From positions 1 through 49,209 of the IMG/VR virus record IMGVR_UViG_3300036835_000149: a DNA stretch of 49,209 nucleotides, one strand, 5' to 3'. A model generated the notes under the pieces. That model searched no databases. It saw only the letters and a program-made list of their open reading frames with translations, and was not told the origin of the DNA. Within the stretch, counting starts at the first letter, position 1; each line of letters opens with the position of its first letter. The position numbers were made by a program, and so were the translations under genes. This document shows positions 1 to 27,145 of this stretch, piece by piece. This DNA is from a virus.

Positions 1-16
1 CGAACGCGCTGTGCAC
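1..16 (-). CDS. 5' end of the next leftward gene, SAFG-motif protein (partial)
   Basis: Only the first codons are inside the window. Reading leftward, a perfect AGGAGG is followed after five bases by GTG at 16-14, then codons for His-Ser-Ala-Phe and a codon beginning with G. The peptide M-H-S-A-F-(G) matches the beginnings of three other proteins here (MRSAFG at 13268 and 27145, MAESAFG at 12340). The gene directly follows the major capsid gene. The start is well supported by its ribosome binding site; function is unknown. Confidence 0.6.
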
Positions 17-31
17 GGGTACCTCCTATGA

Positions 32-61
32 GGGAGGCCGGTCATGGCCTACCGGCCTCCT
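32..61 (-). terminator. hairpin after the major capsid gene
   Basis: A 10-bp perfect inverted repeat (GGAGGCCGGT / ACCGGCCTCC, 8-nt loop) lies just beyond the capsid stop codon. The leftward transcript has no long U-run after it, and the ribosome binding site of the next gene follows, so it may act as a partial terminator or an RNA-processing and stability element rather than a full stop. Confidence 0.55.
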
Positions 62-67
62 CTCGGC

Positions 68-1066
68 TCAGGCCACCGCGTTGGCCATGAAGATGCCCAT
101 GTCCTTGGCGATCACTCGCATGTCGTAGGTCATCTCGGCCTCGATGCGGTCCGCCTCGATCCACTCCATCCGGAAGTTCTTCATGCGGATCCCGTAGCTG
201 TTGCCAGCCAGGTAGCCGTTCCAGGTGAAGCAGTAGCCGGCGGCCGGCGTCATCAGCGACGGCGCGCTCGGGGTGTAGCAGAGCAGCGCCGACTTGCTGT
301 TGGACATGAACCGGTAGGTCGCCGCGGCGTCCTGCGCCTTGGCGTCGTTCAGCTCGGCCACGTCGGTCACCGTCGCGTAGCTGACCAGGATCTTCTCCAC
401 GTCGAACAGCGACGCGAGCAGGTCGGTGGTCACCACACCACGCTGGGTGTACTTGATGCGGTCGATGATGTCCGGGTGGTTCTTCAGCTGGGTGATCGTG
501 CGCGCCCCGAGGACCAGCGTGTTGGCCTTGCGGCCTGACTGCTCCACGAAGTTGGTCTGCAGGTCAGCGAACTGCACGATCGGGTCGGAGTTCGGGTCGC
601 TCCACTGGAGGAACTGCCCGGCCGACACGGTGCCGGTCACACCGGTGAGGTCGGTGCCCCACTGGCCCGTCTTGAAGAACTTGTCGTTCCAGTCCAGGTC
701 CCGCCGCAGCAGCATCTGGTTGGTGCAGAACGTGGTCGCGTCCGAGTCGAGTCGCCAGTTCGAGTCAGCGTTCGCGCGGACCTGGTCGTCGATGTCCTTG
801 TGGACCGCCCAGACCTCGCAGAAGTACTGCCCCGTGTCGACCTTCCAGCCGACCCCGGCCGACTCGGTGCCCGGCGCACGCTTCTGCGCGTCGGTCCTGC
901 GCCAGTCGGACTTGGAGTACTTCCAGTACAGATCGCTCTGCTTCTGGACCGGCACTCGGGGGAAGACCTTGTCAGCGATGAACTGCGCCTTGTCCTGCAT
1001 GTAGGCGACAGAGACATTGGTCAGCGGAACGTTGACGTGGAGATCGCTCTGAGTGGGGTTAGGCAT
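68..1066 (-). CDS. major capsid protein
   Basis: This 332-aa protein has the features of the actinophage major capsid family: an N-terminal arm (NPTQSDLHVN), then VFPRVPVQKQSDLYWKYSKSD, the conserved block KRAPGTESAGVGWKVDTGQY, and AVHKDIDDQVRANAD around residues 100-115. It forms the icosahedral shell. It lies downstream of the decoration-like and scaffold-like genes, the usual head-gene order. AGGAG nine bases before ATG 1066 sets the start. The arm residues NPTQSDL recur inside the prohead protease (residues 34-40). Assignment is by family resemblance read by eye; the fold is presumed HK97-like. Confidence 0.88.
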   Translation of the reverse strand: MPNPTQSDLHVNVPLTNVSVAYMQDKAQFIADKVFPRVPVQKQSDLYWKYSKSDWRRTDAQKRAPGTESAGVGWKVDTGQYFCEVWAVHKDIDDQVRANADSNWRLDSDATTFCTNQMLLRRDLDWNDKFFKTGQWGTDLTGVTGTVSAGQFLQWSDPNSDPIVQFADLQTNFVEQSGRKANTLVLGARTITQLKNHPDIIDRIKYTQRGVVTTDLLASLFDVEKILVSYATVTDVAELNDAKAQDAAATYRFMSNSKSALLCYTPSAPSLMTPAAGYCFTWNGYLAGNSYGIRMKNFRMEWIEADRIEAEMTYDMRVIAKDMGIFMANAVA

Positions 1067-1081
1067 TGCTTGTCACTCCTC

Positions 1082-1483
1082 TCAGAGGCTCAGGAGAACG
1101 TTGACGAGTTCCCCAGGGTTGGCGGTCGTGGACAGTGCGGTTCCGACTCGAGGGCCGGTGCCGGTCTTGGCGGCCTGGCCGTCGGCGCTGCAGTAGATCG
1201 GATCCCCGGCGGTGATGGCCACGTCACTGACCACCTTCGAGACGCCGGCGAAGCCGACCGTGGCGGCCTGGCCGGTGCCCTGCGGCTTGTTCTGCAGCAC
1301 CCCGACCACGTCACCGGTGGCGGCGGCGAGGCCACACTGGTGCACCCCGGTCACCTTCACGAAGTGGTACTGCTTCCCTCCGTGCGGGTCGGGAGAACCG
1401 GGCTGACCCGGGACTCCGGTGTAGATGCCAATGGACGAATCCGCGTTCAGCGTGATCGACCGAAGGCTCTCTTCGTAGGCCAT
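1082..1483 (-). CDS. capsid decoration / stabilisation protein (putative)
   Basis: A 133-aa Gly/Ala/Thr-rich beta protein without Lys-rich or membrane segments. Its spaced motifs (GDVVGVLQNKP, GFAGVSKVVSD, GDPIYCSADGQA) are typical of the small DUF2190-like head decoration proteins encoded directly upstream of phage capsid genes. It would bind the outside of the shell. The gene is 15 nt from the capsid start and has a GAGGAAGG ribosome binding site. Identification rests on position and composition more than on a diagnostic motif. Confidence 0.6.
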   Translation of the reverse strand: MAYEESLRSITLNADSSIGIYTGVPGQPGSPDPHGGKQYHFVKVTGVHQCGLAAATGDVVGVLQNKPQGTGQAATVGFAGVSKVVSDVAITAGDPIYCSADGQAAKTGTGPRVGTALSTTANPGELVNVLLSL

Positions 1484-1498
1484 TGCCCTTCCTCTCTG

Positions 1499-2320
1499 CT
1501 ACCGGTTCCGCTGCGCGGCCAGGTACTCGTCGTAGGCGTCCGGGTTGTCGTCGAACACCTTGTTGATGGCCGTCACCGGGCTGAAGTCCTCCGCCTTGCC
1601 GAACGTGTCGTAGGCGTGCTTCTCGACCTGGGAGTAGATGTCGGTGTTGTCGCCGCCACCCTGGTAGCCGACCTCCTCGAAGATGATCTCGCCGGCCGTC
1701 TCCAGGCACTTGGCGATCACCGCGCAGTCGTCGTACGACATGGTCTCGGCCATCCGGTAGAGCACCGGACCCAGCTCGGCGGGGTCCACCGGCAGGTTGT
1801 ACTCGGCGGCCTTGGAGACGTACTCCCGGGTGAGCCGGAGATCCCGCTCGGCCTGGGCCGCCTTGGCGACCTCCTCGTACTTCTTCTCGATGTCCTCGAC
1901 CCGGCCCAGCGCCTTGGCGATGACCTCATCGCGGTCCTTGTCACTGAAGGCCTTGGAGAGCTCCTCCATCACCGACTCGGTGAAGCTGCCGGCCTGGGGT
2001 GCGGGCTTGTCGAAGAAGGCGGACTTGCCGACCGTGGCCAGCTCCTTCTCCTTGTCCTTGTCCTTCTCCTTGTCCTCCGGCTCGTCTTCCTCCGCCTCGA
2101 CGAACTCGTAGGCATTGCCCTCGTCGTCGTAGACGATGTCACCGAACTCGAGATCCTGCTCGTCGAGGGGGGTTCCCTCCTGGTTGTAGAGCTGGGGCAT
2201 CTCATCCTCCTCAGGAGCCCTCTTCGCGATGACGAACCGAGAGTGCTGGTTCGCGGTCTTGTCGACGGTGGAGATCTCGTCGATCTCCATGTCCGTCAGG
2301 TTCATCCGTAGTCGCGGCAT
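1499..2320 (-). CDS. scaffold-like head assembly protein
   Basis: A 273-aa, strongly acidic protein. Residues 12-34 contain IDEISTVDKTANQHSRFVIA, a signature seen at the start of phage XkdF-type protease and scaffold polypeptides. It is followed by an acidic stretch, a Lys/Glu/Asp-alternating region near residues 77-92, and a predicted coiled coil at about 140-170. Together with its place between protease and decoration genes this suggests an internal scaffold that chaperones capsid assembly and is then removed or degraded. No catalytic residues are evident. Confidence 0.55.
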   Translation of the reverse strand: MPRLRMNLTDMEIDEISTVDKTANQHSRFVIAKRAPEEDEMPQLYNQEGTPLDEQDLEFGDIVYDDEGNAYEFVEAEEDEPEDKEKDKDKEKELATVGKSAFFDKPAPQAGSFTESVMEELSKAFSDKDRDEVIAKALGRVEDIEKKYEEVAKAAQAERDLRLTREYVSKAAEYNLPVDPAELGPVLYRMAETMSYDDCAVIAKCLETAGEIIFEEVGYQGGGDNTDIYSQVEKHAYDTFGKAEDFSPVTAINKVFDDNPDAYDEYLAAQRNR

Positions 2321-2378
2321 GTCATCTACCTCTGCTCTCAGTCTCGGATGGTCGTCCAGTCAGTGGTCCGCATCGTGG

Positions 2379-3296
2379 TCAGTGGTGTGCCCACTTCTTG
2401 GCATTGATCGCGAACTGGGCCCGCTTCCGCTGCAGCTCCGAGGACTTCGAGCTGGCCACCACAGCGTGTGCATGCTCTTGGATTCCCTTGCCCGCCTTCT
2501 TGGCCGAGGCAGTGAACTTGCCCTCGTTCTCGGGCTTGATGTTGATCGCCTTGCTCACCGGGTCGTGCTCTACCCCGAAAGCGGAGCGCTTGGCGTAGGG
2601 CTGCCAGGAACCCTGCTCCTTGCGCTTCAGCGCCCGATGCGCGCCGGCCGCACCGGCCACGGCGGCTACACCGATGGCGGCCTTGCCACCCCGTCGGACC
2701 GTGGGCTTCAGCGCCTTGAGGTGGACCGGCTTGATCTTCTTGGCCTCGTGCACCGCATGCATGCCCTGGTGCGCCGCGAAGGCACCGCCGGCTCCGGCAC
2801 CGACCAGTGCCGCACCTTGGTAGGCCTTGCCACGCTTCTCCCGCTTGGCCTCGGAGTCGAAGTTCGAGGCCGAGGGAGACCAGGCCTTCTCGATCTCGGC
2901 CTCGATCTCGGCCGGCGTGAGTGGCGTGCCCTCCTCACCGACATAGCCCATGTCCATGCTCGACTCCTTCTTCAACTGCGTCTGCTGCTTGCGTCGTGAC
3001 TCATCCCGGTAGATCGAGGCCATGTTGAAGCCACCCACACCACCAATGCCACCGGAGGCGATGCCGGTGTAGAGCGCCTTGTTCTTCAGCCCCTCAGGGG
3101 TGGTCTTCTTCAGCCCGGGCACCCGCCGGATCGCACCCAGCGTCTTCTCCCCGGCCGCACCCTTCCGGGACGCCAGTGCAGCGGTCAGGCCGAGGCCGGC
3201 ACCTGCCAGGCCCAGCGTGGAGGTGGTGTGGGTGATCTTGCTCTGCGCAGCCCGGCGACGCCGCAGCTGGGCGTCGGTCATCAGTTCCTTGGTCAT
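2379..3296 (-). CDS. head-module protein with internal SAFG motif and Gly/Ala-rich helices
   Basis: A 305-aa basic protein. The ATG at 3296 overlaps the upstream stop (ATGA); a longer reading to 3398 would run through the protease gene and is rejected. It has three small-residue hydrophobic segments (near residues 22-38, 160-175 and 208-222), an EIEKAWSPSASNF element, and at residues 237-250 the motif RSAFGVEHDPVSKA, which starts three other proteins in this genome. It reads like two modules joined at that motif. It is probably a minor or internal virion component; its function is unknown. Confidence 0.7.
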   Translation of the reverse strand: MTKELMTDAQLRRRRAAQSKITHTTSTLGLAGAGLGLTAALASRKGAAGEKTLGAIRRVPGLKKTTPEGLKNKALYTGIASGGIGGVGGFNMASIYRDESRRKQQTQLKKESSMDMGYVGEEGTPLTPAEIEAEIEKAWSPSASNFDSEAKREKRGKAYQGAALVGAGAGGAFAAHQGMHAVHEAKKIKPVHLKALKPTVRRGGKAAIGVAAVAGAAGAHRALKRKEQGSWQPYAKRSAFGVEHDPVSKAINIKPENEGKFTASAKKAGKGIQEHAHAVVASSKSSELQRKRAQFAINAKKWAHH

Positions 3297-4312
3297 GCCG
3301 GCGTCCTGCGGCCGTGACCGTGGATGGAGAACCCAGTGCGCTTCCCGGACTTGATGTCGGCCCAGACCTCGGGGTCCTGGACCTGGAATCCCACCCACCA
3401 GCCAGTGGGCACCGAATCAGGCAGCCCCATCGCGTCCCGCTTCTCCGGGGTGACGATGAAGCTCTCGATCATCTCCGACTTCTGGATCGGCTGCCACTCG
3501 TTCCGCAGGTGCATGTCCCCGCCCTTGCGGGACTTCATCACATAGGAGTAGCCGGCCTTCTCCATCTCGTCGGGGGAGATCAGGTCGCCCTGCAGGTCCT
3601 CCACTTGCTGACCGCCGATCTCGACCACCGAGGCCCAGCCAAAGATCTGCTGCTTGTCCGCGTCGGCCTTGGCGAACTCGCCCTCCCAGACCACGTCCAG
3701 CTGCTTCTCCACCTCGTTGGTGGTCTTGATCTTCTCCGGGAGCTTCTTCAGCATCCCGCCGGTCTTCTTGGTGTACTCCAGCCCCTTCTTGCGCATCTTG
3801 GGACTGGTCACCGTAGCCCGGGTCAGCTGGCCCTTGGTGGGCATCTTGTCGCTGGCCTGGTTCAGCATGTCCAGGGTGTCGCCCTTGGAGACCTTCTTCT
3901 TGGTGTCGCCGTGCAGGATCCGGGTTGCCATGATCTCGCCGCCCAGGCCGGCGGCTTCGAGCGGGATCAGTCCGGTGGCAAACTTCTCCTGGCCCAAGGT
4001 GTGCTTGGCCGCAGCTCCGCGAGTCATCTTCGGCAGCAGCTGACCAGCGTGCGAGACCGCCCGGCCGGCTCGAGCTGCTCGGTAGGACCGGCCCAGGTTG
4101 CGAGTGGCCAGCCCCAGGCCGGCAGCACCGGCACCGGCACCCACCGCGCTGAGTCCAGCAGTCAGGGCCCGCTTCTTCCGCTCATGGGTGGACAGGTCGG
4201 ACTGGGTGGGGTTCATCTTGGTGATCAGCTGGTCCCCGCCGCCACCGAACAGCAGGTCAGCCACCTCGGCGAACGTGTCGTCGGTGGCCAGTAGCTCGCG
4301 CACGTCGCTCAT
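3293..4312 (-). CDS. prohead maturation protease, XkdF-like (putative)
   Basis: A 339-aa protein of two parts. Residues 1-190 are basic with a Gly/Ala hydrophobic stretch (about 48-66) and contain NPTQSDL at 34-40, identical to the capsid N-terminal arm. Residues 195-335 resemble the XkdF / Peptidase S78_2 domain: GWASVVEIGGQQVEDLQGD, then MESFIV-type and GWWVGFQVQDPEVW segments, and GKRTGFSIHGHG at the end. It is expected to trim scaffold and head proteins during maturation. Catalytic residues cannot be fixed by eye. An alternative start is the internal ATG just before NPTQSDL. Confidence 0.66.
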   Translation of the reverse strand: MSDVRELLATDDTFAEVADLLFGGGGDQLITKMNPTQSDLSTHERKKRALTAGLSAVGAGAGAAGLGLATRNLGRSYRAARAGRAVSHAGQLLPKMTRGAAAKHTLGQEKFATGLIPLEAAGLGGEIMATRILHGDTKKKVSKGDTLDMLNQASDKMPTKGQLTRATVTSPKMRKKGLEYTKKTGGMLKKLPEKIKTTNEVEKQLDVVWEGEFAKADADKQQIFGWASVVEIGGQQVEDLQGDLISPDEMEKAGYSYVMKSRKGGDMHLRNEWQPIQKSEMIESFIVTPEKRDAMGLPDSVPTGWWVGFQVQDPEVWADIKSGKRTGFSIHGHGRRTPA

Positions 4313-4334
4313 GTCCTCATCGTCCTTCCCTGCG

Positions 4335-6308
4335 CTACTCGCCCTCCTCGGGCAGATCGACGGACTGCCTGGGTTCTACCTTGAAGGTGGTCACCATGTA
4401 GCCGTCATCGTGCACCACCCGGCTCACGGAACCAGGGGTGAGCTCGTAGTCGCCGTCGATGGAGTAGGACTGATGCCGGCTCCGGGGGCCACCGCTGATG
4501 TGCTCGACCGCGCCCTCCTCGGTGGGCACCGCGTCCACCTGGACCACATAGTGCTCGAAGTCTTCACTGCGCAGCCCGAACTTCTCCCCGATGTAGGACA
4601 GCGGCACTCGATCGGGCATCCCTTCGTATCCCTGGCCACCTTCCCAGTTCACCCGGATCTGCTCATCGCCGACGAAGTTCGGGTCGTAGTCCTCATGCCA
4701 GTGTCGAGTCGCGGAGTTCGCGTACCACTCAGCCACCGCCTCGATCTGCCGCGGAGAAAGCTCGGCTCGGTATCGCTGGCCGGTCCGCTTGTCGGTCTCC
4801 TCGATCACTGCGCCCTTGTCGATCATGTCGTCGATGGACCGGTACATCTGGTGCTGGATCGCCTCGGCTGCCTCGGCTGCTGCCGAGATCTCATCGGTGG
4901 TGAAGGTGATCCCATGGTTGAGCCTGAGCTCGCTGATGTCTCCATCACCCAGGTCGTGGTACGCGACGACCGCATAGCCTGGCTGCACCTTCTGGATCGG
5001 AGTCTTGGTGAGCTGCCGGGGCTGGGTCTGCACATTGAGCCGGGTCTGCTGCCGCAACTCCACCGCCAGATCCGCAGCAAAGTCAATCTTCGCCTCCGGG
5101 TCCGCCACGTGAGTGACGGCCTGCTGAGCGAAGGTGCGTCGCTCCAGGGGTGAGGAGAACCCAGTGTGGAAGCCCCGGGTCTGCGGCTGGGCGGATACCA
5201 GCTCGGCGAACGCCCGGTCGGTTTCGGTGTCCGGCTCTACGGTCTCCGCAGCGGCCACATAGGTCAGGTGCCGGGTCGGCTGCCGCACCGGCTGGGCCAC
5301 GATCTGCCGGAACGCCTGGTCCACGTCGATGGTCTTCGTCTGCCGCGTGCGTGCCTTGGTGCCGAACCGGCCGTGCTCGGCCCGTGGGTGCAGCTGATTG
5401 AACTCGTGCAGCTCCGCGCCGGCCAGGCTCTTGGTGAACTTGTTCTCGATCAGCCGCACCTCGCAGCGGCAGTTCGGGTGCAGCCCAGGAGTCCAGAACT
5501 CGCCCTCCTTGGTCACGAACCGCTCGTTGAGCCCGACCTTCTTCCCGTGCAGCGGCGCACAGATCGTGCAGGTGCGCTCGTCCTTGGCGGTCAGCCACAT
5601 CTTCTGGGCCTTGCCACCGAGCCGGCCCTTGTCCTGGAGCCACATCCAGGCCAGCTGCTTGGCCTGCTCGTCGATGTTGTGCTCCTCCTGGGCGCTCATC
5701 TTCCGGATCCGGGTGGTGAACGCCTTGTCGATGAAGTCCCGGGCCCGTGCCTTCACGCTCCGGGGCAGCACGTCGGAGACCGGGGTGGAGAACTTGCTGG
5801 CCCCCACGTAGGACCGCATCTGCCGCGAGGTCAGCCCATAGGCATCCAGCACCGTGTCCACCGCGGCCTTCGCCGGCACTCGCCGGTTCACCAGGGTGTT
5901 GTAGCCCTCGGCCAGTGCCTCTCTCGAGGAGGCGTGGAAGTACTCCCCGACCTTCTCCGCGTGCTTGTCGGCCAGGTCGTAGATCATGCTCATCGGCACG
6001 TCGCCGGCGTCAGCCATCCGGTAGGCCCGGAGGTAGGCGTCGGCCATGATCGGGGCCGAGATCTTCCGGTACCGCCAGAACGCGGCCTGCCAGGCCAGGT
6101 CCGCCAACCGCAGCAGCTGGGCCCGGGTGGGCTCGTCGATGCCAGTCATCTGCTGGCGTAGCTCGGTGACCACCTGAGCCCTGGTCACCGCCAGGGCAGC
6201 CTCCAGCGCCTCGGCCGGCGATCCCAGGAACTCCCCGGCACGAGGGATGTCCTGGGGTCGTAGTCCGGTGGGGTTGAACCCCAGTTCGACGTACGGGGCT
6301 GTGGTCAC
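4335..6308 (-). CDS. Mu gpF-like minor head protein with long C-terminal extension
   Basis: A 657-aa protein starting at GTG 6308 (GTGA overlap with the preceding stop). Residues 190-290 carry the phage Mu F (SPP1 gp7) domain: RTCTIC with Cys247 and Cys250, then HPNCRC with His277, Cys280 and Cys282. Such proteins sit at the portal and help DNA ejection. Residues 307-316 (HPRAEHGRFG) match the HPR...GRF linker common after phage head domains. The remaining 340 residues have no recognised domain. The extension is much longer than in plain Mu-F proteins and may be an ejected cargo. Confidence 0.75.
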   Translation of the reverse strand: MTTAPYVELGFNPTGLRPQDIPRAGEFLGSPAEALEAALAVTRAQVVTELRQQMTGIDEPTRAQLLRLADLAWQAAFWRYRKISAPIMADAYLRAYRMADAGDVPMSMIYDLADKHAEKVGEYFHASSREALAEGYNTLVNRRVPAKAAVDTVLDAYGLTSRQMRSYVGASKFSTPVSDVLPRSVKARARDFIDKAFTTRIRKMSAQEEHNIDEQAKQLAWMWLQDKGRLGGKAQKMWLTAKDERTCTICAPLHGKKVGLNERFVTKEGEFWTPGLHPNCRCEVRLIENKFTKSLAGAELHEFNQLHPRAEHGRFGTKARTRQTKTIDVDQAFRQIVAQPVRQPTRHLTYVAAAETVEPDTETDRAFAELVSAQPQTRGFHTGFSSPLERRTFAQQAVTHVADPEAKIDFAADLAVELRQQTRLNVQTQPRQLTKTPIQKVQPGYAVVAYHDLGDGDISELRLNHGITFTTDEISAAAEAAEAIQHQMYRSIDDMIDKGAVIEETDKRTGQRYRAELSPRQIEAVAEWYANSATRHWHEDYDPNFVGDEQIRVNWEGGQGYEGMPDRVPLSYIGEKFGLRSEDFEHYVVQVDAVPTEEGAVEHISGGPRSRHQSYSIDGDYELTPGSVSRVVHDDGYMVTTFKVEPRQSVDLPEEGE

Positions 6309-9300
6309 CGCTGGGCAGCGCTCTTGTCAGTCCGTGCGATCAACCTCTCCAGCTGCTGGTGCAGCTGCGGATGCTCCTCCCGCAGCCTGCTGTGGGTGTC
6401 GAGGAACGGGTCCATGCCCTTGTCGCTGGGCAGCATGTCCACCTTGCGCGCATAGTCGTTGTAGGCGTCCATGGCGACCTGACCACCCTGCTGCTGAGCC
6501 ACCTGGGCCAGTCGCTGCGCGGCATCCCGGTACTGGCTGTGCACCCGCTTGGTCTCCGGGGCCAGCTCGGCCTGGAGCTTCTCCTCCTCGACCGGCACGA
6601 AGTACCCGCCACCGACCGGCTCCGGAGGCTCCGGTCGCGGTGCCGCGCCACCGCCGGACGGCTGACCGGGCAGTCCTCGCCAGGTTCCGCCACCGGCAGT
6701 ACCGGTACCACCCGGCCCGCCCTTGGCCTTCAGCGCCCGAGTCTTGTGGATGTTCTCCAGGTGCCGCGCCGCCCCGGCGTCGTCCCGGAAGAATCGGGAG
6801 GCGAAGGCACCGGTGTGCGCGAACTTGCTCCCGAAGGCATCCTGGGCGTCGTCGCCGTAGGTCTTGCTGCTCTGCATGGCGGCGCGCATGTCCTTGGTCA
6901 GGTCGAACTCCTCCCGCAGCTCCTTGTCGTTCAGCTGGGACAGCGGCTTGCCGGACTGCAGCCCGATGTCATCGCCGTCCAGCCGGTTCAGGGCCACCGT
7001 GACCGCGACCGGGTCCGCGCTGGACCGGAATGCCTCGCCGTGCTTCTCCGGGTCGAACTTGTAGGGCGTCGGCTGCCAGTGGTTGGCATGCTCGGGCCCG
7101 TACTGGGCCCCACCACCAGACCGGCTCTGGGCAGAGACGAACTGGTTGTACTGCCGGGCGGCATTGGTGTCGCCCCACTGGTCGCCCAGGTCGGTGACGA
7201 AGTCGCGGAACCCCTTGAGGTTCTCCGGCTTCTCCAGGTACTCCGCCATCTGGTCCCGGTCGTAGTCCCACCACACCGGTGGTGCGGTGCCACCCGGTGG
7301 CCGGTGCGTCTTGGCCGCCTGCTGCAGCTGGACCGCAGCGTCCCGGACTCGGCTCTGGGCCTGGACCTGCTCCAGCGCATCAGCGGCCCGGTCCCTGGTG
7401 CGATCCCGATTCGCGGAGACACCACGAGAGGACACGCTGGAGCTACTTCCCGAGCTGGTCTCATCCTCCTTGCGGTTCCCGGACCGGTACCGGGACTCCC
7501 GCGGCGCAGGTGCGCCGGGCAGGCCACGCTGGTAGTCGGCGCGGGCCGCGGTGAACTTGCCGCTCTTCCCCTCGGCGGTGCCGAACCAGCCGGCGCTGGC
7601 CCCGGTAGGCCGGTTCCGCCCGGGCTCCACGTAGCCCTCGTCCCGCTCGAACTCCTCCAGGTGCTCTTCCTTCGGGTTCGAGTCGGTCTGGATGTAGTAG
7701 GGGAACTGCTCACGCAGGCTCTCCAGGGCCGCGGCGTAGCCGACTCCGTTCAGCCGGAAGTGGATCTCCTTGAGGTCGCGGAGCTCGTTCATGACCTCCT
7801 TGCGGTAGTCGGCCACGTCCTGCCGGCTGTAGACGCCGCGCTTCTCGCCCTCCTCCATCCGGCTGATCGCGGCTTCGGCCCGGTCCAGGTCTCGACCGTT
7901 GATCTGCGGGTTCTCCTTGAACTCCTTGATCCGGGCATCGATCTCGGCCCGGACCAGCCGCTGCGAGGCGGACGGGCCGTACTCACCACGGACCTCGTCC
8001 TCGATCATCTTCCGCCAGCGCACCGGCACGTCCTGACGCTCCACCTGCTCGGACTGCACCGCGTCCAGGAGCTGCTCGTAGCGCCGAGTCATCCGCCGAG
8101 CCTTGTCGTTGTGCCGACGCCCGCCGCGGAAGTCCGGCTGGAACTCCATGGTGAAGGTGCCAGATCGGGAGACCACCGTGACCCGGCGGGCCCCGGAGAT
8201 CAGTCCGGTGTACACGTCCTCGCTGGTGAGACCACCGACCGAGCGGTTCCGGATGTACTCCCCACCCTTCAGCCCCTTCAGGTTCTTCAGGTTGAACGGC
8301 AGGTAGTGGTCGTCGCCGTAGCCGACTGCCTGGGTGACGATCTGGCCGTCGGAGTTGATGATCACGCCTTCGCTGGGCGGCGTGTTCCCGCTGGCCAGCT
8401 GGAGCTTGTAGTGCTGCTTGCTGGGCAGCTTGTCGGTCAGGTAGTCGGCCACCGCCTTGCGGCCCTGCTCCCGCTCCTGCCACTCCGGAGCCCGCCCGGC
8501 GCGAGCCTCCCGCTCGGCCACCATCTGGGTCAGCGACGGAGCCGGGCCCGGTCCAGGACCCTTCTGCTGCCGAGCACCCTTGGGGCGCACCGCAGTCTCG
8601 GTACCGAACGGCTGCCGCCCAGCACCGCGTGCCTGCCGCCGTCGTCCCTCCTCGAGCTCTGCGAACCGGTCGATCGGACCGATCTTCTTGCCCTCCTGGA
8701 TCGCATCGCCATAGGAGCGGACCAGGCGCTGGTCCGGGGTCTTCTCGGTGCCTCGGTACCGGTAGGCGGTCTTGCGCGCCGAGGGGCCGAGCACCGCCTC
8801 GGCCTGCGGGCCGTACTGGCCGACGATCTCGGCCATCTTCCCGGCCAGCTGGACCTTGCCACCTGGAGCACCCAACGTGCCGGCAGCTTCACCCAGGGTC
8901 TTGGTGCGCTGGTACAGCCGGGCGTTGGCATTCTGGGGCTCGCCCTCACCGGCCTGCAGCCAGGAGGTGCCCCAGCCCTCGACCTTGGGCCCGGCCGCCT
9001 GCATCCGCTGCACGGTGCCGGCTTCCATGGTGTGCCCCATCGCCCCGGCCAGGCTGAACGCAGCCCCACCAGCGGTCAGGCTGGTGGGCAGCGCCTCGGC
9101 CCCGACTGCCCGGACGTTCTTGGGCATCATCGTGGTCATCGGCTTGGTGCTGGTGGCCTCCTCGGCCCAGGTCTCCCCGGTGTCGTCGTCCACGAAGTGC
9201 ACCAGGGTCTTGTTGTTGCCGTCGGTGGCCGCGTTCACCGCGTCCAGGAAGTTGGCGACCTGCAGGTACTGGTTCTGGTACCGGGCCTTGTCCTTGGCAT

Positions 9301-10051
9301 CCAACGCGCCATAGACCTTGCCGGAAGTCCCGGCGATGCCCATCGACTTGGCGGTCTTGTCCGGCATCGGCCGGTCCAGCCCGCGGTCGGAGAACTTGAT
9401 CTGGAACCGGCCGGTGGACGGGTCGCGCTTGATCTTCCGCTCGAACTCCCAGTTCGGGATCGGGTCGGCCTTGTGGATCTGGGCATCGAGCATGGCCAGT
9501 GCCTGGGCGTAGGGAACCGGGTTCTCCATCCCCTTGCTGACCAGCCGGATGGTGGCCTGCTTCAAGTCGTTGACGCGCTTGGCAATCACCTCGTTCAGGT
9601 GCTTCTGCAGAGTGGCCTGGTTGTTCTCGACCTCCTGCTCCAGCAGATCCGAGGCGACGATGTAGCAGAACATCTCCGCGGTCTCGTCGTCCATCTTCAT
9701 CACCAGGTCGAACATCTTCTGGGCCGCGTCCTGGTTGAAGAAGGAGTCGTCCGAGAGCGGCACCAGGAGCTTGGAGATCTTGCCCTTCTTCCGCTCCTTG
9801 CGCCGGCGCTCGGCGCGCACCACGTCCTGGGCTGGTGGGATCTGGTTGGCCAGCGCACCAGCCACAGTGCCTGCGGCCACCGGCTTCCACCAGCCGTACC
9901 GGTCGGCCTTCCGGATCCGACGACGCTTCTTCTTGCCCGGGTCGTTGGGGCCACCCTTGACGTAGCCGTGCCCCTCCTCATGCCACTTCGCCGCGATGTC
10001 CGGGTGATGGATGTGCATGAAGGCGGCCTGCTTGTTCGAGGCGTAGGGCAT
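6305..10051 (-). CDS. very large virion-associated protein between portal and Mu-F genes
   Basis: A 1248-aa basic protein. The start at ATG 10051 is set by AAGGGGAAG upstream and a 1-nt gap from the portal stop; codons upstream of it lie in portal coding sequence. The N-terminus (MPYASNKQAAFMHIHHPDIAAKW) belongs to the short phage family with the pattern PY.S..Q...M....P.IA..W. A Gly/Ala hydrophobic segment follows at about 50-70 and another at about 355-375. Further elements are KIKRDPSTGRFQ near residue 190 and many Arg/Gln/Ala-rich helices. No enzyme motif was recognised. Its size and position suggest an internal or ejected head protein. Confidence 0.68.
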   Translation of the reverse strand: MPYASNKQAAFMHIHHPDIAAKWHEEGHGYVKGGPNDPGKKKRRRIRKADRYGWWKPVAAGTVAGALANQIPPAQDVVRAERRRKERKKGKISKLLVPLSDDSFFNQDAAQKMFDLVMKMDDETAEMFCYIVASDLLEQEVENNQATLQKHLNEVIAKRVNDLKQATIRLVSKGMENPVPYAQALAMLDAQIHKADPIPNWEFERKIKRDPSTGRFQIKFSDRGLDRPMPDKTAKSMGIAGTSGKVYGALDAKDKARYQNQYLQVANFLDAVNAATDGNNKTLVHFVDDDTGETWAEEATSTKPMTTMMPKNVRAVGAEALPTSLTAGGAAFSLAGAMGHTMEAGTVQRMQAAGPKVEGWGTSWLQAGEGEPQNANARLYQRTKTLGEAAGTLGAPGGKVQLAGKMAEIVGQYGPQAEAVLGPSARKTAYRYRGTEKTPDQRLVRSYGDAIQEGKKIGPIDRFAELEEGRRRQARGAGRQPFGTETAVRPKGARQQKGPGPGPAPSLTQMVAEREARAGRAPEWQEREQGRKAVADYLTDKLPSKQHYKLQLASGNTPPSEGVIINSDGQIVTQAVGYGDDHYLPFNLKNLKGLKGGEYIRNRSVGGLTSEDVYTGLISGARRVTVVSRSGTFTMEFQPDFRGGRRHNDKARRMTRRYEQLLDAVQSEQVERQDVPVRWRKMIEDEVRGEYGPSASQRLVRAEIDARIKEFKENPQINGRDLDRAEAAISRMEEGEKRGVYSRQDVADYRKEVMNELRDLKEIHFRLNGVGYAAALESLREQFPYYIQTDSNPKEEHLEEFERDEGYVEPGRNRPTGASAGWFGTAEGKSGKFTAARADYQRGLPGAPAPRESRYRSGNRKEDETSSGSSSSVSSRGVSANRDRTRDRAADALEQVQAQSRVRDAAVQLQQAAKTHRPPGGTAPPVWWDYDRDQMAEYLEKPENLKGFRDFVTDLGDQWGDTNAARQYNQFVSAQSRSGGGAQYGPEHANHWQPTPYKFDPEKHGEAFRSSADPVAVTVALNRLDGDDIGLQSGKPLSQLNDKELREEFDLTKDMRAAMQSSKTYGDDAQDAFGSKFAHTGAFASRFFRDDAGAARHLENIHKTRALKAKGGPGGTGTAGGGTWRGLPGQPSGGGAAPRPEPPEPVGGGYFVPVEEEKLQAELAPETKRVHSQYRDAAQRLAQVAQQQGGQVAMDAYNDYARKVDMLPSDKGMDPFLDTHSRLREEHPQLHQQLERLIARTDKSAAQR

Positions 10052-10052
10052 C

Positions 10053-11897
10053 TCACTTCCCCTTCTTCTTCGGGGGCACCTTCTTGGCCGCGGCCTTCTT
10101 GGCCGGTGGCTTCGCGAACCGCTGCTTGTCCCGCAGGGACTGCGCCTGCAGTTTTGCACTGCTCGCGGCCGAGCGGTCCTTGAGCCGCATCTGCTCCTTG
10201 GTCCGCTTGTGGTCCCGGTTCGCCATGGTGTCCTGCAGCCGCATCTTCTCCTTTTCGCGGCTGTGCGTGGCCTGGGCGACCTTCTCCTGCATCTGCATCA
10301 TCTGCATCTGCCGGTCGTGGTCCTTCTGGGCGTTCGGGTCCTCGGGCGGCGGCTGGTTCATCAGCTGCTGCTGCTCGGCGTCCTGCTGGGCCATCTCCGG
10401 GGTGGGCTGCTGGGAGGCCATCTCGGCCTGCTCCGGGGTGTAGCCCTGGGCGGTCATCTCGGCCTTCTGCTTCAGGCCGAGCAGGTCCATCTGGCCCTGG
10501 CCGTACTCCATGGCCTGCTGCTGCTCGAGCATGGTCCGCTTGTAGTCCACGTCCTCGTCGGTCATCTCCGGGAGGCGAGCGATCTCGCGGATGTACTTCT
10601 CCAGCTCCGGGTCCGGGAACCACTGCATGCCGGCACCGGCGGTCGCCGAGATGAACGAGGCGAGCTGGTCCAGCGCCGGCGGGTCCACGTTGGTGGGCTC
10701 GAACCGGGGCAGTGCGTCCAGCTTCCAGCCATTGATGGCGAACAGTCGGGGCACCACGTACCGGTTCAGGGTGTCCGCGATGGCCTTGGTGATCGCGTTC
10801 AGGGCGGCCCGGAAGATGCCGGTCTTGTCGGTGTGCAGCGAGTAGCTGCCGGTGTCCTGGTGGCCGACCAGGATGAAGTCGGCCAGCACGCTCATCAGGA
10901 TCCGCTGCTCGTAGCGCTGGATGATCGAGTTGGTGTCGAACTGCCGGGTGCCACCGCTGCTCATCAGCTCGAAGTCGAAGAGCGGCTGCTTGGTGTCCGG
11001 GTCGTACTGGGTGGGCAGCACCAGCCCCTCGTTCTCGTCCCGGCGGACGCCACGGACCATCTTCCGGAAGGCGTCCACCGTCTTGGCCTGGGGCGTGCCC
11101 TTCTGGGCGGTCAGGTAGTCGGCGGGCACCTTGCCCACCGGCATGCCGGCCAGGTCGCGCTCGACGCCGATGGCCTCGAACTCCTCGAGCCGCTTCTTGA
11201 AGTACCAGGCCCGGTAGGACGTACGCAGCAGGCTGACGCCCTCCGGGTTGCCCTTGGCGATCGAGGTCCGGAAGAGCACGCTCTTCTCGATCGGGATCAC
11301 CGTGGTCTGGTACCTGGGCGGGGCCATCTGCACCATCGCCCTGATCCCGCCGGTCTCGTCGAAGGACCAGCGCAGCATCGTCTCCTGGGCTCGGATCGGC
11401 ATCTTCCGCCAGCCGATCAGCCCGTCCTCGTACTTGCTCCGCTTCTTCGGGTCCTTCTGCCAGGGACCGAGCCGGCGCTTGTAGACGATCTCGTGCCAGC
11501 TCCAGCCGTAGACCAGCATGGAGAGCACCTCACCGATGAAGTCGTCCCAGCTGTGAGACATGTCGTCCATGCATGACTCCAGGAACTCCTGAGCCAGCAC
11601 CCCCTCGTCGGTCTGCTCGGGTGGGAGCACCTTCCACTCGACCTCGCGCAGCAGCTTGTCGATGGAGAACAGCAGCGCCCCGACCATGGAGTCATTGGCC
11701 GACATCTCCCGGTAGACCCGGACCGCCTTGCGCCCCCGGAGTGCGGGGAGGAACTCCTCGTCAATGTAGCCGGAGACCCGCTTGACCCCGGTGACACCGA
11801 GCTCCTGCATGGGCCCGACGCGCTGCGGGATCTCGTCACCCGCGTTGTCCTCGTCCCAGGTGGAGATGTCACCCTGCGGAAGCCGCACATCTGCCAT
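10053..11897 (-). CDS. portal protein
   Basis: A 614-aa protein of the DUF935 / Mu gp29-like portal family. It has an N-terminal domain with KAVRVYREMSANDSMVGALLF, then LLREVEWKVLPP, and the core SMLVYGWSWHEIVYKRR. Further on are GVSLLRTSYRAWYFKKRLEEFEAIGVERDL and a GSYSLHTDKTGIF segment. The last 150 residues are Gln/Met-rich helical, followed by a Lys/Ala tail (KKAAAKKVPPKKKGK). It forms the dodecameric DNA gate. The start overlaps the upstream stop as TGATG. Confidence 0.9.
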   Translation of the reverse strand: MADVRLPQGDISTWDEDNAGDEIPQRVGPMQELGVTGVKRVSGYIDEEFLPALRGRKAVRVYREMSANDSMVGALLFSIDKLLREVEWKVLPPEQTDEGVLAQEFLESCMDDMSHSWDDFIGEVLSMLVYGWSWHEIVYKRRLGPWQKDPKKRSKYEDGLIGWRKMPIRAQETMLRWSFDETGGIRAMVQMAPPRYQTTVIPIEKSVLFRTSIAKGNPEGVSLLRTSYRAWYFKKRLEEFEAIGVERDLAGMPVGKVPADYLTAQKGTPQAKTVDAFRKMVRGVRRDENEGLVLPTQYDPDTKQPLFDFELMSSGGTRQFDTNSIIQRYEQRILMSVLADFILVGHQDTGSYSLHTDKTGIFRAALNAITKAIADTLNRYVVPRLFAINGWKLDALPRFEPTNVDPPALDQLASFISATAGAGMQWFPDPELEKYIREIARLPEMTDEDVDYKRTMLEQQQAMEYGQGQMDLLGLKQKAEMTAQGYTPEQAEMASQQPTPEMAQQDAEQQQLMNQPPPEDPNAQKDHDRQMQMMQMQEKVAQATHSREKEKMRLQDTMANRDHKRTKEQMRLKDRSAASSAKLQAQSLRDKQRFAKPPAKKAAAKKVPPKKKGK

Positions 11898-12340
11898 CAG
11901 GCAACCCTCGCAATCCGAGCCAGCCTACGGAGCACACCGGTCTTCTTGGCCGTCGGAGCCAGCTTCTGTGCCGCCGATGCTTCCATCCGGCCGATCCCGG
12001 TGCCGGGCTTGCGCCGGTTCATGTTGTTGACCGCACTGATCGAGGCGTTGCTGAACGCCTTGTGGCCCCGCGCGTTCTTGATCGCGTCCTGGGCCATGCC
12101 CGCGGCCCGTGGATGCGGGGAGCCCTTCATCTGGTGGATCAGCCTGCTCGCGTCCCCGGCGTTCTTCCGGGTCAGGTAGTTGGTCCGCATCCGGGTGTCC
12201 ATGGACTGAGTCTTGTCGTTCATCCCGGCATCGGGCCCGAGCCGGGCAACGATGTCGTTGCCAGCGGAGTACACCTTGGGCCCCAGCTTCCGGTAAGCCT
12301 TGGAGATCGTGTGCTCAACACCGAAGGCACTCTCAGCCAT
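11897..12340 (-). CDS. SAFG-motif protein upstream of portal
   Basis: A 147-aa basic protein beginning MAESAFGVEHTISKAYRKL. The ATG at 12340 overlaps the upstream gene by 8 nt; earlier in-frame codons belong to that gene's reading. It is rich in Arg, Lys, Ala and Asn, with a highly basic end (RRLARIARVA), and contains no recognised domain. The N-terminal motif is shared with genes at 13268 and 27145, with the interior of the 2379-3296 product, and apparently with the gene at the left edge. It is likely a small virion or capsid-internal protein. Confidence 0.68.
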   Translation of the reverse strand: MAESAFGVEHTISKAYRKLGPKVYSAGNDIVARLGPDAGMNDKTQSMDTRMRTNYLTRKNAGDASRLIHQMKGSPHPRAAGMAQDAIKNARGHKAFSNASISAVNNMNRRKPGTGIGRMEASAAQKLAPTAKKTGVLRRLARIARVA

Positions 12341-13268
12341 GGCTGGCCTTCCACTTGCGGTGTGCCTCGCCCGCGGCCAGACCGGCTGCTCCAAGGCCGG
12401 CTACCGCCAGCCCAGGCTTGGTGGCCCGACCGACCATCTTCGCGTTCTTACCGTAGGCCATCGCGAAGTACCGCTGCTGGGACGCGGCACCGTGCAGCTT
12501 GCCGGCCTCGGCGGCCTTCGCGTTGGTGGTGCCGGTGAAGATCTTCCGAGCCTTGCCCTTGTGCGACAGCTCCTTGTCGTAGTCCCCGACCGGACGGGTC
12601 TTGTGCGCCAGCCCGGGCACCAGCTCACCGGCCTGCTTGACGCTCTGCTGAGAGCGCGCGTACCACTTCTTGCCCTGGCTGCCGAGCAGCGCCTTGCCAC
12701 CAATACCGACGCCAGCAGTGGTGGCACCGGCACCCAGCGCCGCACCTGAGTACTTGTCGGTCCGCTCGCTCTTCTTCACCTTCGACCGCTGTGCGCCATA
12801 GGCAGCGAGCCCGACCCCGCCGGCCAGGGCCGCAATGCCGGCCTTGCGACCGACCTTGAGATGCCGGATCACCTCCTCCTCCGGGCCGATCTTCCCGGTG
12901 CCCCGGCCGCGAAGGAAGTGCTGGGTCCGGCTCAGCCCCTTGGTGTGGGCGTGCTTGGCCTGCTCGGTCTTGAGCTCGGTGTTGAAGTGCGCGTGCGCCT
13001 TGGTCCGGTAGCCCATCACCCCACCAGGGGCGGACCGGATCATCCCCGGGTTCCCGGACGGGTCGCTGCGGAAGACCCGGGCCGCCTTGCCGGGGTTCTC
13101 GTTCTTCACCCCGTGCGGGTTGGATCGCAGTCCGGGGACCCCGCCGACCGCCAGCCCGGTGGCCGCGGTGGCCGCGCCAGCGCCGACAGCGGTCCCACCC
13201 AGAGCAGATCGGTGATCGTTGCGGGCCTTGCTCACCACGCCGTGCTCGATGCCGAAGGCGCTCCTCAT
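12333..13268 (-). CDS. SAFG-motif protein with glycine-zipper-like segments
   Basis: A 311-aa basic protein beginning MRSAFGIEHGVVSKARND. It contains four stretches dominated by Gly, Ala and Val (near residues 24-45, 150-165, 182-200 and 285-302), resembling glycine-zipper or weak transmembrane helices, separated by Lys/Arg-rich loops. It lies between terminase and portal genes. Such composition fits a protein packaged in the head and able to insert into membranes during DNA delivery, but this is inference; no family was recognised. Confidence 0.65.
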   Translation of the reverse strand: MRSAFGIEHGVVSKARNDHRSALGGTAVGAGAATAATGLAVGGVPGLRSNPHGVKNENPGKAARVFRSDPSGNPGMIRSAPGGVMGYRTKAHAHFNTELKTEQAKHAHTKGLSRTQHFLRGRGTGKIGPEEEVIRHLKVGRKAGIAALAGGVGLAAYGAQRSKVKKSERTDKYSGAALGAGATTAGVGIGGKALLGSQGKKWYARSQQSVKQAGELVPGLAHKTRPVGDYDKELSHKGKARKIFTGTTNAKAAEAGKLHGAASQQRYFAMAYGKNAKMVGRATKPGLAVAGLGAAGLAAGEAHRKWKASHG

Positions 13269-13294
13269 GCCTCCAGTCTCGCCGGTGTGTCACC

Positions 13295-14800
13295 TCACAC
13301 CATCAGGTCGAGCTCCGGAGCCACTTCCTTGGACTTGTTGTCCACCGAGCCGACCACCCACTGACCAGGCTTGCGCTTGGCGTCCTTGTTGAAGCGCATC
13401 TCATCCTCGATCCAGGTCGGGTCGTTGTTCCCGGCCAGCACGATCGGCTGGGCTGGGATGGCCCGCTTGCTCACCAGCCGCCAGCACAGCGCCATCGAGC
13501 AGATCTCGTCGGGCAGGTGGTACTCCTTGCCCCGCGCGTACAAGCTCTCCACGCTGGCGTAGAGGTGGTTCTTGAAGAAGACCGGCACCCGCGGAGCCAG
13601 CCACTTGTCGTTCTCGATCGCACTCACGTACTCGCTGAGCATGTTGTCCCGCTGGGCACCGGTCATCAGGAAGCCCCGGGCCCGCCGGTCCACGTAGTCA
13701 GCCACCACTGCGCCGAGCCCGGTGGCGTCGTGGATGCCCTCGGCGTTGTACTCCTTCATCAGCTTGTTGAACGCGCCGATCATCACCGGGTAGGGGTGCC
13801 GACGCATCCTGGTCCAGTGCACCACCTTGGCCGGCATGAAGCTCACGTCGGCGACCGTGATCACCGTCCAGTCCACCGCCTGGGCCCAGTCCGCGCCGAT
13901 CACGTACTCGCGGTCGGACTTCGGGTCCTCGAAGCGGTAGTACTGGTGCTCCTTGGTGACCTTCTGGCTGATCGCCTCCTCCGGAAGCGAGAACATCCGC
14001 TCCACCGCGGCTGAGTCGATGGCACGGTTGCCGATCGAGGGCTCACCCAGGTCGTACTCCACCCGCCACATCTCGGCCGGGATCTCGAGCCGCTTCTGCT
14101 CGATGGTCTCCTGGTCCAGCCAGCCGTCGATCGGGTTCGAGGTGTCCTTGTAGCACCACTGGTAGATGTGCTCGTCGCGCTCCCGGAACCGCTCCTGGAC
14201 CACCGCGAAGGTCTTGTCCGGGTACTGCCAGGTGCTGGTCATCGCGGTCATCGGCTGGATCCGCCGGCCCTGCCAGTTCTCCTGCGGCATCGGCTGGCCC
14301 AGTGAGGCATCGAAGATGGCCAGGTCCATCTCGTCGATCTCGTCCAGCAGCAGGGACGGTGGGTGCGGGCCTCGGACGGTCTTCTGTGAGGCGGTCAGCG
14401 GCATGATGATCGCCTTGTTGTTCAGCCTGATCCGGGTGGCCGTCTCCTCCTTGATCAGGTACTTCGGGGCGTGCTCGGACTCCCAGGCGTTGCGCATGGT
14501 GTTGTGGATGTTGATCGACTGGTTCAGCGAGCCGCCGACGATGTTCACGTCCGAGCCCTGCACCGCGGCCTTGGTCAGGCCCAGGATGGAGATCAGCCGG
14601 CTCTTCCCGGACAGCCCACGGGAGCCGTGCATGAGGATCGAGGACTTGCGGTTGAAGTAGGCCTCGGCGAACGCATCGAAGGGGGCGTCGTGATCGCTGC
14701 AGACCTTGTGCCGGGGGATGGTGATCCCCCACAGCGCCCTGACGCACTCGTAGAGCTCGGAGTCAGTCCGTGGCTCCCGGGTCAGGACGATCGCGCTCAC
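13295..14800 (-). CDS. terL: terminase large subunit
   Basis: A 501-aa packaging motor. The ATPase domain has a Walker A-like loop at residues 58-67 (HGSRGLSGKS) and Walker B LLLDEIDE at 150-157, with the coupling motif near TAMTSTW (186-191). The C-terminal RNase H-like nuclease shows Asp304 in VIGADWAQAVDWT and Asp358 in GIHDATGLG. It cuts concatemeric DNA and pumps it through the portal. GTG 14800 overlaps the upstream stop (GTGA). The small subunit gene is not adjacent but 12 kb away, on the far side of the tail-fibre block. Confidence 0.93.
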   Translation of the reverse strand: MSAIVLTREPRTDSELYECVRALWGITIPRHKVCSDHDAPFDAFAEAYFNRKSSILMHGSRGLSGKSRLISILGLTKAAVQGSDVNIVGGSLNQSINIHNTMRNAWESEHAPKYLIKEETATRIRLNNKAIIMPLTASQKTVRGPHPPSLLLDEIDEMDLAIFDASLGQPMPQENWQGRRIQPMTAMTSTWQYPDKTFAVVQERFRERDEHIYQWCYKDTSNPIDGWLDQETIEQKRLEIPAEMWRVEYDLGEPSIGNRAIDSAAVERMFSLPEEAISQKVTKEHQYYRFEDPKSDREYVIGADWAQAVDWTVITVADVSFMPAKVVHWTRMRRHPYPVMIGAFNKLMKEYNAEGIHDATGLGAVVADYVDRRARGFLMTGAQRDNMLSEYVSAIENDKWLAPRVPVFFKNHLYASVESLYARGKEYHLPDEICSMALCWRLVSKRAIPAQPIVLAGNNDPTWIEDEMRFNKDAKRKPGQWVVGSVDNKSKEVAPELDLMV

Positions 14801-15120: not shown

Positions 15121-15129
15121 AAGCCCATA

Positions 15130-15252: not shown

Positions 15253-15260
15253 CGTGTCCC

Positions 15261-15800: not shown

Positions 15801-15804
15801 CAGC

Positions 15805-16026: not shown

Positions 16027-16052
16027 GTCTCCATCCTCATCTCGTTGGCTAG

Positions 16053-17189: not shown

Positions 17190-17192
17190 GGA

Positions 17193-17519: not shown

Positions 17520-17544
17520 GGCTGCCTCCTCTAGTCAGATCGTC

Positions 17545-17775
17545 TCATTCAGCGCCACCCGCCGGCGGCGGTGTGGGAGCCGGCTCGGAGTAGTCGTTGG
17601 GTGGGGCCACGTAGACCGCCGCACCCGAGATGATGATCGTCGCCAGAGCGGTGATCCACTCGCTGGTGGTGATCGAGCTACCACCCTCGCTCTGCGGCGT
17701 CACCGACGCCACGATCGTCACTGCGCCAGGAGCCAGAGCTCCGGCGATGGCCTTCCAGTACCGCTGCCACTTCAT
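17545..17775 (-). CDS. holin (putative)
   Basis: A 76-aa protein with two hydrophobic segments: residues 8-24 (AIAGALAPGAVTIVASV), and 38-56 (EWITALATIIISGAAVYVA), the latter preceded by the polar hinge TTSEW. The short basic N-terminus (MKWQRYWK) and Pro/Glu-rich tail fit the actinophage holins of the form W.KA..GAL...ITA.EW. It would permeabilise the membrane and release the M15 endolysin encoded 1.7 kb downstream. Its stop overlaps no other gene, and its start overlaps the upstream stop (ATGA). Confidence 0.7.
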   Translation of the reverse strand: MKWQRYWKAIAGALAPGAVTIVASVTPQSEGGSSITTSEWITALATIIISGAAVYVAPPNDYSEPAPTPPPAGGAE

Positions 17776-18059
17776 GTCGGCTCCTCCTCAGGTGGTGGAT
17801 TCATGGCCTGCACCTGGGACAGGATCATCCCATCGGTGATCACTGCCTCGTCGGTCCCAGGGTCGTAGTTCTGATCGCTGCTGTGCACGTTCAGTGCGTA
17901 CTCCCAGGCATCGTCCCAACCTGGTGCAGCTGCCCACTCCCGCTGATGCTGGTAGGCCCAGTTCTGGCCATCTGAGATCTGCTCGCCCACCGCGCACTGG
18001 ATCACCCGCTCGTTCATGGCCTGGTTGGCCGCGATCTTGCTCTGGGTCAGATAGCTCAT
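17772..18059 (-). CDS. conserved small phage protein next to holin
   Basis: A 95-aa acidic protein (SKIAANQAMNERV, then REWAAAPGWDDAWEYAL and DPGTDEAVITDGMILSQVQ). The same arrangement of WAAAPGWD..W and ITDGMILS recurs in small proteins of unknown function near actinophage tail and lysis genes. ATG 18059 is chosen because earlier codons lie in the fibre gene. It is coupled to the holin by ATGA. Confidence 0.6.
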   Translation of the reverse strand: MSYLTQSKIAANQAMNERVIQCAVGEQISDGQNWAYQHQREWAAAPGWDDAWEYALNVHSSDQNYDPGTDEAVITDGMILSQVQAMNPPPEEEPT

Positions 18060-18066
18060 GGCTCTC

Positions 18067-22034: not shown

Positions 22035-22041
22035 CTCGTCC

Positions 22042-25727: not shown

Positions 25728-25752
25728 GGGCCGATGCTAGTGGTGGATCGGA

Positions 25753-26433
25753 TCAGTGCGGGAGCATCTCCGCGTAGGTCGTGAAGCCGGAGTTGGCGTC
25801 GCCGTCGTTGCCCTGGATGCCCTGCGGACCCTGGATGCCCTGAGCGCCCTGGATGCCGGGAGGGCCCTGCGGGCCGATCGGACCAGAGCCGGTGCGGGTC
25901 ACACACAGGTTGCCCAGGCTGATCGAGGTGGCGGTGCCGGACTTGGCGTACACGTTGGCCACCTCACCCGCAGCCGCCCGGTAGGGGAAGACCAGGTCCA
26001 CGTAGAACGGCGCTCCAGCACCCGCCATCCTCGAGCACCGGGCGATCATCGTGGAGCCCACCATGTACCAGATCTCCCGGGCCGTGGAAGCCGCATCGTC
26101 GAACCGCAGCCAGGTGCTCAGCAGGTAGTCGCCGGCCTCGGCGAAGGTGATGTTCGAGACCGAGGTGAAGCAGCTCAGGTCGTCGTAGGCCACCGAGCCG
26201 AAGCTGATCAGGGTGTCGGTGTTCGCGGCCAGCGGGATGTTGACGCCCACGCTGGTCCGGCCCTGCTTCTGCAGGATCTGACCGATCGGCCCCTGCTCGC
26301 CCTGTGGACCCTGCTCGCCCTGCACACCCTGTGGTCCGGCCACTCCACGTGGACCGATCGGGCCGATGCCCTGCAGCACGCCGGTGCGCACCTGGATGGT
26401 GCCACCGTTGACCAACCTGACTACGTTCGCCAT
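25753..26433 (-). CDS. collagen-like tail protein with C1q-like globular domain
   Basis: A 226-aa protein in three parts: a Gly-X-Y collagen run near residues 22-52 ([19 protein letters not shown]), a beta domain of about 125 residues ([17 protein letters not shown] through [10 protein letters not shown]), and a second collagen run ([16 protein letters not shown]) near the end. The pattern predicts a trimer with a jelly-roll-like core between collagen stalks. ATG 26433 overlaps the upstream stop as TAATG. It is a likely fibre or spike element. Confidence 0.78.
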
Positions 26434-26819
26434 TACAGCACCGTCACCCTCTGGTTCACCGTGCACTCGCCCTTGATCAGCCGCTGCACCTGGTTGCCGA
26501 TGTACTCATCCCCGTCGTTCACGGTCACGAACAGGTCGTACTTGTAGACCCCGGGCACCAGGTTGCTGGTCACCGAGTCCTCGATGTGCAGCTGGATCAG
26601 CCCGATGTCCGAGCTCAGCGTGATCTCCGGGATCTCACCATCGGGAGGTGGATCGTCTGGAGTGGACAGGGACAGCTGGATCGCACCGGTGGCGCTCTTG
26701 ATGTCCAGCCGGCACGGGGCGATCACGTTCTGCGGCTGGTCCATGTCGTCGGTGAAGATGACGTTGGAGGTCCAGTCCTCGCCCTGGTCGATGTCCATCG
26801 GGACGTAGGCAGCGCTCAT
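26433..26819 (-). CDS. small beta-sandwich tail-associated protein (LtfC/BppU-like, putative)
   Basis: A 128-aa acidic beta protein: [17 protein letters not shown], then [11 protein letters not shown], and [34 protein letters not shown] at the end. The layout (modified-dimension strand pair, LDIK block, YKYDL..V block, final G...V) matches small beta-sandwich proteins that sit upstream of phage fibre genes. A similar protein is encoded in the rightward cassette at 41322. It is coupled by overlaps on both sides. Confidence 0.55.
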
Positions 26820-27145
26820 GGCAGGTTCCTCTTCCTCGGGGCCGTCGCCATGTACTCCGCGGCCTTGGCTTGCATGCGACCCCTGCTGCCCTCCGACATC
26901 AGCGGGTTGACCCGGCGGATCTCCTCGATCGGCATCCCGGTGCGCTGCAGCCCACCACGACGGGACAGGTCGTGGCCGGCATCCCGGCTGCGCAGCTTCC
27001 CTCGAGCCCAGTTGGTGGGCAGGTTGCGGTGCTGCTCACCACGGGCGAAGACTTTGGGCGCAGTGGCGGCCCGCTGCAGGGCGGCCAGGTTCTTGGGGTT
27101 GATGGACTTGGAGAGCTCGTGCACCACCCCGAATGCGCTCCTCAT
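26816..27145 (-). CDS. SAFG-motif protein next to terminase small subunit
   Basis: A 109-aa very basic protein starting MRSAFGVVHELSKSINPKNL. The shared SAFG...SK motif is followed by Arg/Ala-rich helical sequence without Gly-zipper segments. It lies 4 nt after the putative terminase small subunit and overlaps the next gene by ATGA. It is probably a virion or packaging-associated protein; function is unknown. Confidence 0.65.
   Translation of the reverse strand: MRSAFGVVHELSKSINPKNLAALQRAATAPKVFARGEQHRNLPTNWARGKLRSRDAGHDLSRRGGLQRTGMPIEEIRRVNPLMSEGSRGRMQAKAAEYMATAPRKRNLP

Follow-up and report, generated by a model that had tools for sequence, protein, structure and literature searches.

Signals that send proteins into a viral capsid have been described in only a few model phages; most are propeptides at the N-terminus, and their shared consensus is weak or absent. 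In encapsulins, short terminal cargo-loading peptides, most of them C-terminal, bring unrelated proteins into a shell of the HK97 fold by docking on the shell protein itself. In phage T4, the basic and variable proteins IPI, IPII and IPIII are loaded by means of a short targeting peptide that has an affinity for the core of the prohead; some of them are ejected into the host (PMC9026906). DarB of phage P1 carries an N-terminal signal for packaging into the capsid, 30 residues of which suffice for a reporter, and its authors found no consensus shared by the Dar proteins (PMC9024508). Giant phages of the SPN3US type eject head proteins whose N-terminal propeptides are thought to target them, two of these proteins having identical N-termini (PMC5694885).

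The peptide described here (consensus SAFG(V/I)(D/E)H(G), often with (V/I)SK within a few residues after it) was found in a 49.2-kb stretch of viral DNA (the window, i.e., the whole stretch analysed) and in its relatives, and looks like an address label, undescribed so far, for loading proteins into the virus particle. As with the targeting peptide of T4 (the T4 CTS), a short sequence is common to divergent, basic and variable proteins, here ca. 92 families of protein bodies, 72 of them singletons, with a median net charge of +11.5 per 100 residues (−2.1 for the untagged genes of the same genomes). In T4, however, the CTS is a propeptide of 10-19 residues at the N-terminus that the head protease gp21 removes, whereas this tag can sit at either end (168 N-terminal, 23 C-terminal and 13 internal copies), and relatives of the window have up to nine tagged genes, unlike the T4 set of IPI, IPII and IPIII. 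The L/I-x-E site of T4-type head proteases is absent from SAFG(V/I)(D/E)H(G)..(V/I)SK, although the window protease is of another family and its specificity may differ. Owing to its unrelated sequence, the lack of a T4 cleavage motif and its independence of the N-terminus, we do not file the tag as a T4 CTS; by analogy, the best reading is that it works like one, as a portable capsid-loading tag. P1 DarB is similar in that a terminal peptide serves (in P1) as a capsid signal, but the consensus of our tag is strong and dozens of proteins carry it, while the SPN3US propeptides are mostly long, N-terminal and cleaved by the prohead protease, with no short, end-independent tag. With encapsulin cargo the likeness, by description only, is that of a short terminal peptide on unrelated proteins.

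The structural genes of the window (65% G+C) lie on the minus strand. They start with an untagged terminase small subunit (TerS) candidate (27150..27638, so called only for its place and conserved gene order), directly followed by a 109-aa tagged protein (26816..27145; net charge +14; tag SAFGVVHELSKS at 27139-27104) that has no Pfam or PHROG match and a homologue in one relative (G016). Tail/fibre genes, the untagged terminase large subunit (TerL, 13295..14800), a 311-aa tagged protein (12333..13268; net +34; tag SAFGIEHGVVSKA at 13262-13224), a 147-aa tagged protein (11897..12340; net +18; tag SAFGVEHTISKA at 12331-12296) and, directly after it, an untagged portal (10053..11897; PHROG 113, E 3e-87) come next. 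Beyond the portal lie a 1284-aa protein, MuF, an untagged XkdF-type (Peptidase_S78_2) protease (3293..4312; Pfam PF14550, E 5.3e-17), a 305-aa protein with an internal tag (2379..3296; net +28; SAFGVEHDPVSKA at 2585-2547), an acidic, untagged scaffold candidate of 273 aa (1499..2320; net −36), a small decoration-like protein, the untagged major capsid protein (68..1066; PHROG 1005, E 1.8e-88) and a gene truncated at the edge of the window. A sequence-only reading of this DNA had reported the motif at the N-terminus of three proteins and inside a fourth, and all four copies of SAFG(V/I)xH were recovered where it had put them: MAE-SAFGVEHTISKA (start 12340), MR-SAFGIEHGVVSKA (start 13268), MR-SAFGVVHELSKS (start 27145) and the internal PYAKR-SAFGVEHDPVSKA (Ser codon at 2585). 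The neighbours it had named were confirmed too: portal, TerL, a TerS candidate, the protease (XkdF-type) and the major capsid protein.

The start of a putative fifth tagged gene, also claimed by that reading, is present at the left edge (1..16, minus strand), where GTG-CAC-AGC-GCG-TTC-G.. is read from base 16 as M-H-S-A-F-G?, with AGGAGGT upstream. A 20-base probe of this edge had no match in IMG/VR. The gene immediately 3′ of the capsid gene is tagged in relatives, a place that matches that of the edge-cut gene, and in eight of the 12 genomes in which the capsid gene is complete and has a tag downstream, that tag lies 14-86 nt past the capsid stop (57 nt in the window). Proximity of the tagged genes to head and packaging genes holds in the window, but is too narrow a description for the relatives: tagged genes are found on the TerS side, between TerL and portal, portal and MuF, and protease and scaffold, and just after the capsid gene, but also behind the tape-measure gene and within the tail genes. 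Some other features of the window can be recorded here. The XkdF-type protease (3293-4312) and the major capsid protein (68-1066) both have the heptapeptide NPTQSDL close to the N-terminus, and it recurs in some relatives. At a likely internal ATG start of the 1284-aa protein (6305-10159) stands SNKQAAFMHIHHPDIAAKWHEEG, and a similar segment, MPYxSDAQRxFMHAKHPEIAAKWD, lies close to the N-terminus of certain C-tagged proteins (G007, L184). The adjacent genes at 28655-29620 and 29678-30367 encode similar endonuclease/exonuclease/phosphatase-like sequences (DWN, SDHRP) and look like a duplicated pair.

The tag nearly always occurs once per protein, with very few proteins having two. The family of the 311-aa protein (A2) has it at the N-terminus in the window and in two relatives (L265, as SGFG, and L123), and in three others (L182, L098 and L206) the protein ends in it (NPRM-SAFGVEH-stop). 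Two further relatives (L221, L091) have the 311-aa homologue fused to the 305-aa homologue, with one tag at the end of the fusion; the tag seems to be needed once per chain. In the predicted structure of the 311-aa protein, a low-confidence model, the tag segment is unstructured. Internal tags sit at module borders, and in several relatives the tag is the very end of the 305-aa homologue. A motif of the form SWxxYAKRD often directly precedes the C-terminal tags of relatives, as well as the internal tag at 2379-3296 of the window. Two other candidate peptides were rejected: a C-terminal ending (K/R)R.LP on ca. 25 tagged proteins (e.g., 26816-27145) fits, by eye, a ribosome-binding site and a CC(A/G)TGA overlap with the start of the next gene, and the N-terminal LLFG.G...K of XkdF was judged to be a separate segment and not a tag variant.

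Absence of the motif from relatives, which would have counted against a signal in the sequence-only reading, was checked in IMG/VR, and 207 distinct tagged proteins with 209 tags were found (IMG/VR scans plus extracts of relatives). The number of tagged genes reaches nine in long relatives, is one or two in a few that are divergent, and is zero in a single genome (G010). Genuine-looking tags also occur on contigs that do not match the core genes of the window, but the proteins encoded there are of the same kinds, so that the tag seems to be a trait of a single broad lineage. As the motif search itself demanded the motif, invariance among its matches means little, and an unbiased test of retention used body queries with the tag cut off, counting only homologues reached via a query less than 85% identical to them. 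The strict tag was present in 111 of 120 such homologues, a variant in three and none in six (95% keep the tag); the variants seen are SGFG, SPFG, NAFG and SAWG forms. Among cultured phages, neither a tagged peptide of 31 residues nor the 311-aa protein gave any match by tblastn, the terminase of the window has only remote relatives, and Arthrobacter and Microbacterium phages with related portals had no tag in the stretches read. From G+C content and these portal relatives, actinobacteria of soil or rhizosphere may be guessed as hosts. In GTDB genomes, 15 pattern matches were obtained, all in unrelated taxa and contexts and none with a preceding Ser-Ala-Phe-Gly that opens a comparable protein, and we took them as chance. 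The strings SAFGVDH, SAFGVEH, SAFGIDH and SAFGIEH were printed in no paper of the literature library searched. In the untagged genome (G010), similar basic modules are fused into proteins of 1029 and 409 aa, so the tag is not the sole way to handle such cargo; these two large basic fusions (G010, L284-L287; 29950-33036 and 42360-43586) stand at matching places and have cargo-like modules, including HEHAH...EEARAD.

The tagged proteins are extremely basic: 91% of them reach +8 or more per 100 aa, vs. 3% of untagged proteins. In most, no known domain is recognised. One contains a GNAT acetyltransferase domain (PF00583, E 5e-6), eight share an invariant HExxH followed by EE(A/G)RAD, a pattern suggestive of zinc peptidases, and another group has DGNHR-A in common, by eye, with ParB-like nucleases. 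A guess of ADP-ribosyltransferase for a 157-aa tagged protein gained no support, and transmembrane segments were dismissed as a hallmark, a simple hydropathy cut being passed by 4% of tagged vs. 13% of untagged proteins. The core head proteins are untagged, apart from the portal of a divergent lineage, which is tagged near its C-terminus in two genomes (G013, L194) and has a variant in a third (L345), while 56 portals are untagged. The portal C-terminus is the end expected inside the head.

A lead to the partner of the tag, suggestive only, comes from the scaffold candidate, whose gene stands just before the decoration and capsid genes and encodes a conserved SAFF...EELSKAF segment (SAFF...EELSKA at 2023-1949). 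The pattern SAF...SKA is present in 11 of 1169 untagged called genes, and all 11 are the scaffold candidate protein, which suggests a connection between scaffold and tag. Since the choice of pattern came after inspection of the sequence and the scaffold role is itself deduced, we regard the match as no more than suggestive. It is place, acidity and helices that make the 1499..2320 product a scaffold candidate: no other head protein of the window that was tested is as acidic (−13 per 100 residues), and it is predicted to be helical, although its structure model matched no known fold.

Could the peptide be something other than a targeting tag? Chance does not account for it. Across 18 genomes (the window plus relatives found via TerL, portal or motif), the coding strand has 92 copies of the pattern SAFG(V/I)x(x)H and the opposite strand none, with 0.15 expected after codon shuffling, and the reversed DNA pattern of the tag had no matches. 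An accidental in-frame reading of a DNA or RNA signal (an operator, a processing or a packaging site) would suit copies that stand mostly at gene starts and on a single strand, but codon usage refutes it and leaves its probability practically negligible: 87 of the 91 coding 21-mers are distinct, every codon of serine (six), alanine, glycine and valine occurs at near-genomic frequency, and codons for S, A, F, G, V and I track genome usage (with some preference for the G/C-ending codon at E, D and H). The C-terminal and internal copies are in frame too. Since the codons vary freely, the peptide is what is conserved, and selection acts on it. The same freedom of synonymous positions around a fixed peptide speaks against a by-product of gene shuffling, i.e., a common 5′ segment copied between genes with no targeting role; many bodies are indeed singletons and internal tags look as if a C-tagged gene had fused with an N-tagged one, but homologous proteins bear the tag at either end and 95% of homologues keep it, and we find this origin very improbable.

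That the main role of the peptide is to be a propeptide or cleavage site, cut at the motif by the XkdF-type head protease during maturation, is a more serious proposal, as a serine head protease gene lies within the cluster, internal copies sit at module borders, and the T4 targeting sequences are cleaved after targeting (PMC9026906). Yet in at least 18 C-terminal copies no more than four residues follow the His, and a cut there would free almost nothing; little is fixed outside the core and many C-terminal copies lack the SK tail; the capsid protein has no motif and the scaffold candidate only parts of it. We consider it unlikely. A role after or outside assembly, e.g., binding of a host factor or guidance of ejected proteins in the new host cell, could explain a constant tag on varying bodies and the enzyme-like cargo, and the basic charge could likewise serve outside the capsid, a counterpoint to capsid loading. 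However, tagged genes occur only among late head and tail genes, a portal is tagged and the scaffold candidate shares tag elements, which leaves this role, too, with a low probability. Of the sorting signal put forward in the sequence-only reading, targeting is well supported (the tag is conserved, end-independent, present once per protein and attached to unrelated basic bodies encoded with the head), the scaffold link is suggested by the acidic candidate being the sole untagged protein with SAF...SKA, and a protease site is disfavoured, with C-terminal copies stopping at or near the motif, little fixed outside its core and no T4-type cleavage motif.

We lean, with some confidence, towards a portable docking tag by which accessory proteins enter the procapsid, probably via the scaffold core or a partner of the SAF...SKA segment of the scaffold. 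SAFG(V/I)(D/E)H(G) would dock these proteins into the phage procapsid by binding either the scaffold core or, as the scaffold probably does with its own SAF...SKA segment, a common partner. Being very basic, the tagged proteins would remain with the packaged DNA and could be ejected along with it; enzyme-like domains are present in some of them. The capsid interior, the scaffold as partner, ejection and any cleavage are what we infer for them. More tentatively, and with considerable doubt, we postulate that the seven-residue, end-independent tag copies a scaffold element, so that any basic protein or enzyme gaining it would be co-assembled and delivered to the host, with cargo being swapped behind a fixed tag. 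If docking is indeed its function, the likely internal and ejected proteins of such uncultured phages could be listed from sequence alone, and the tag on some 200 natural proteins would point to a candidate set of host-takeover proteins. A strict, very short tag that works at either end may also become a compact tool for work on the entry of cargo into a procapsid.
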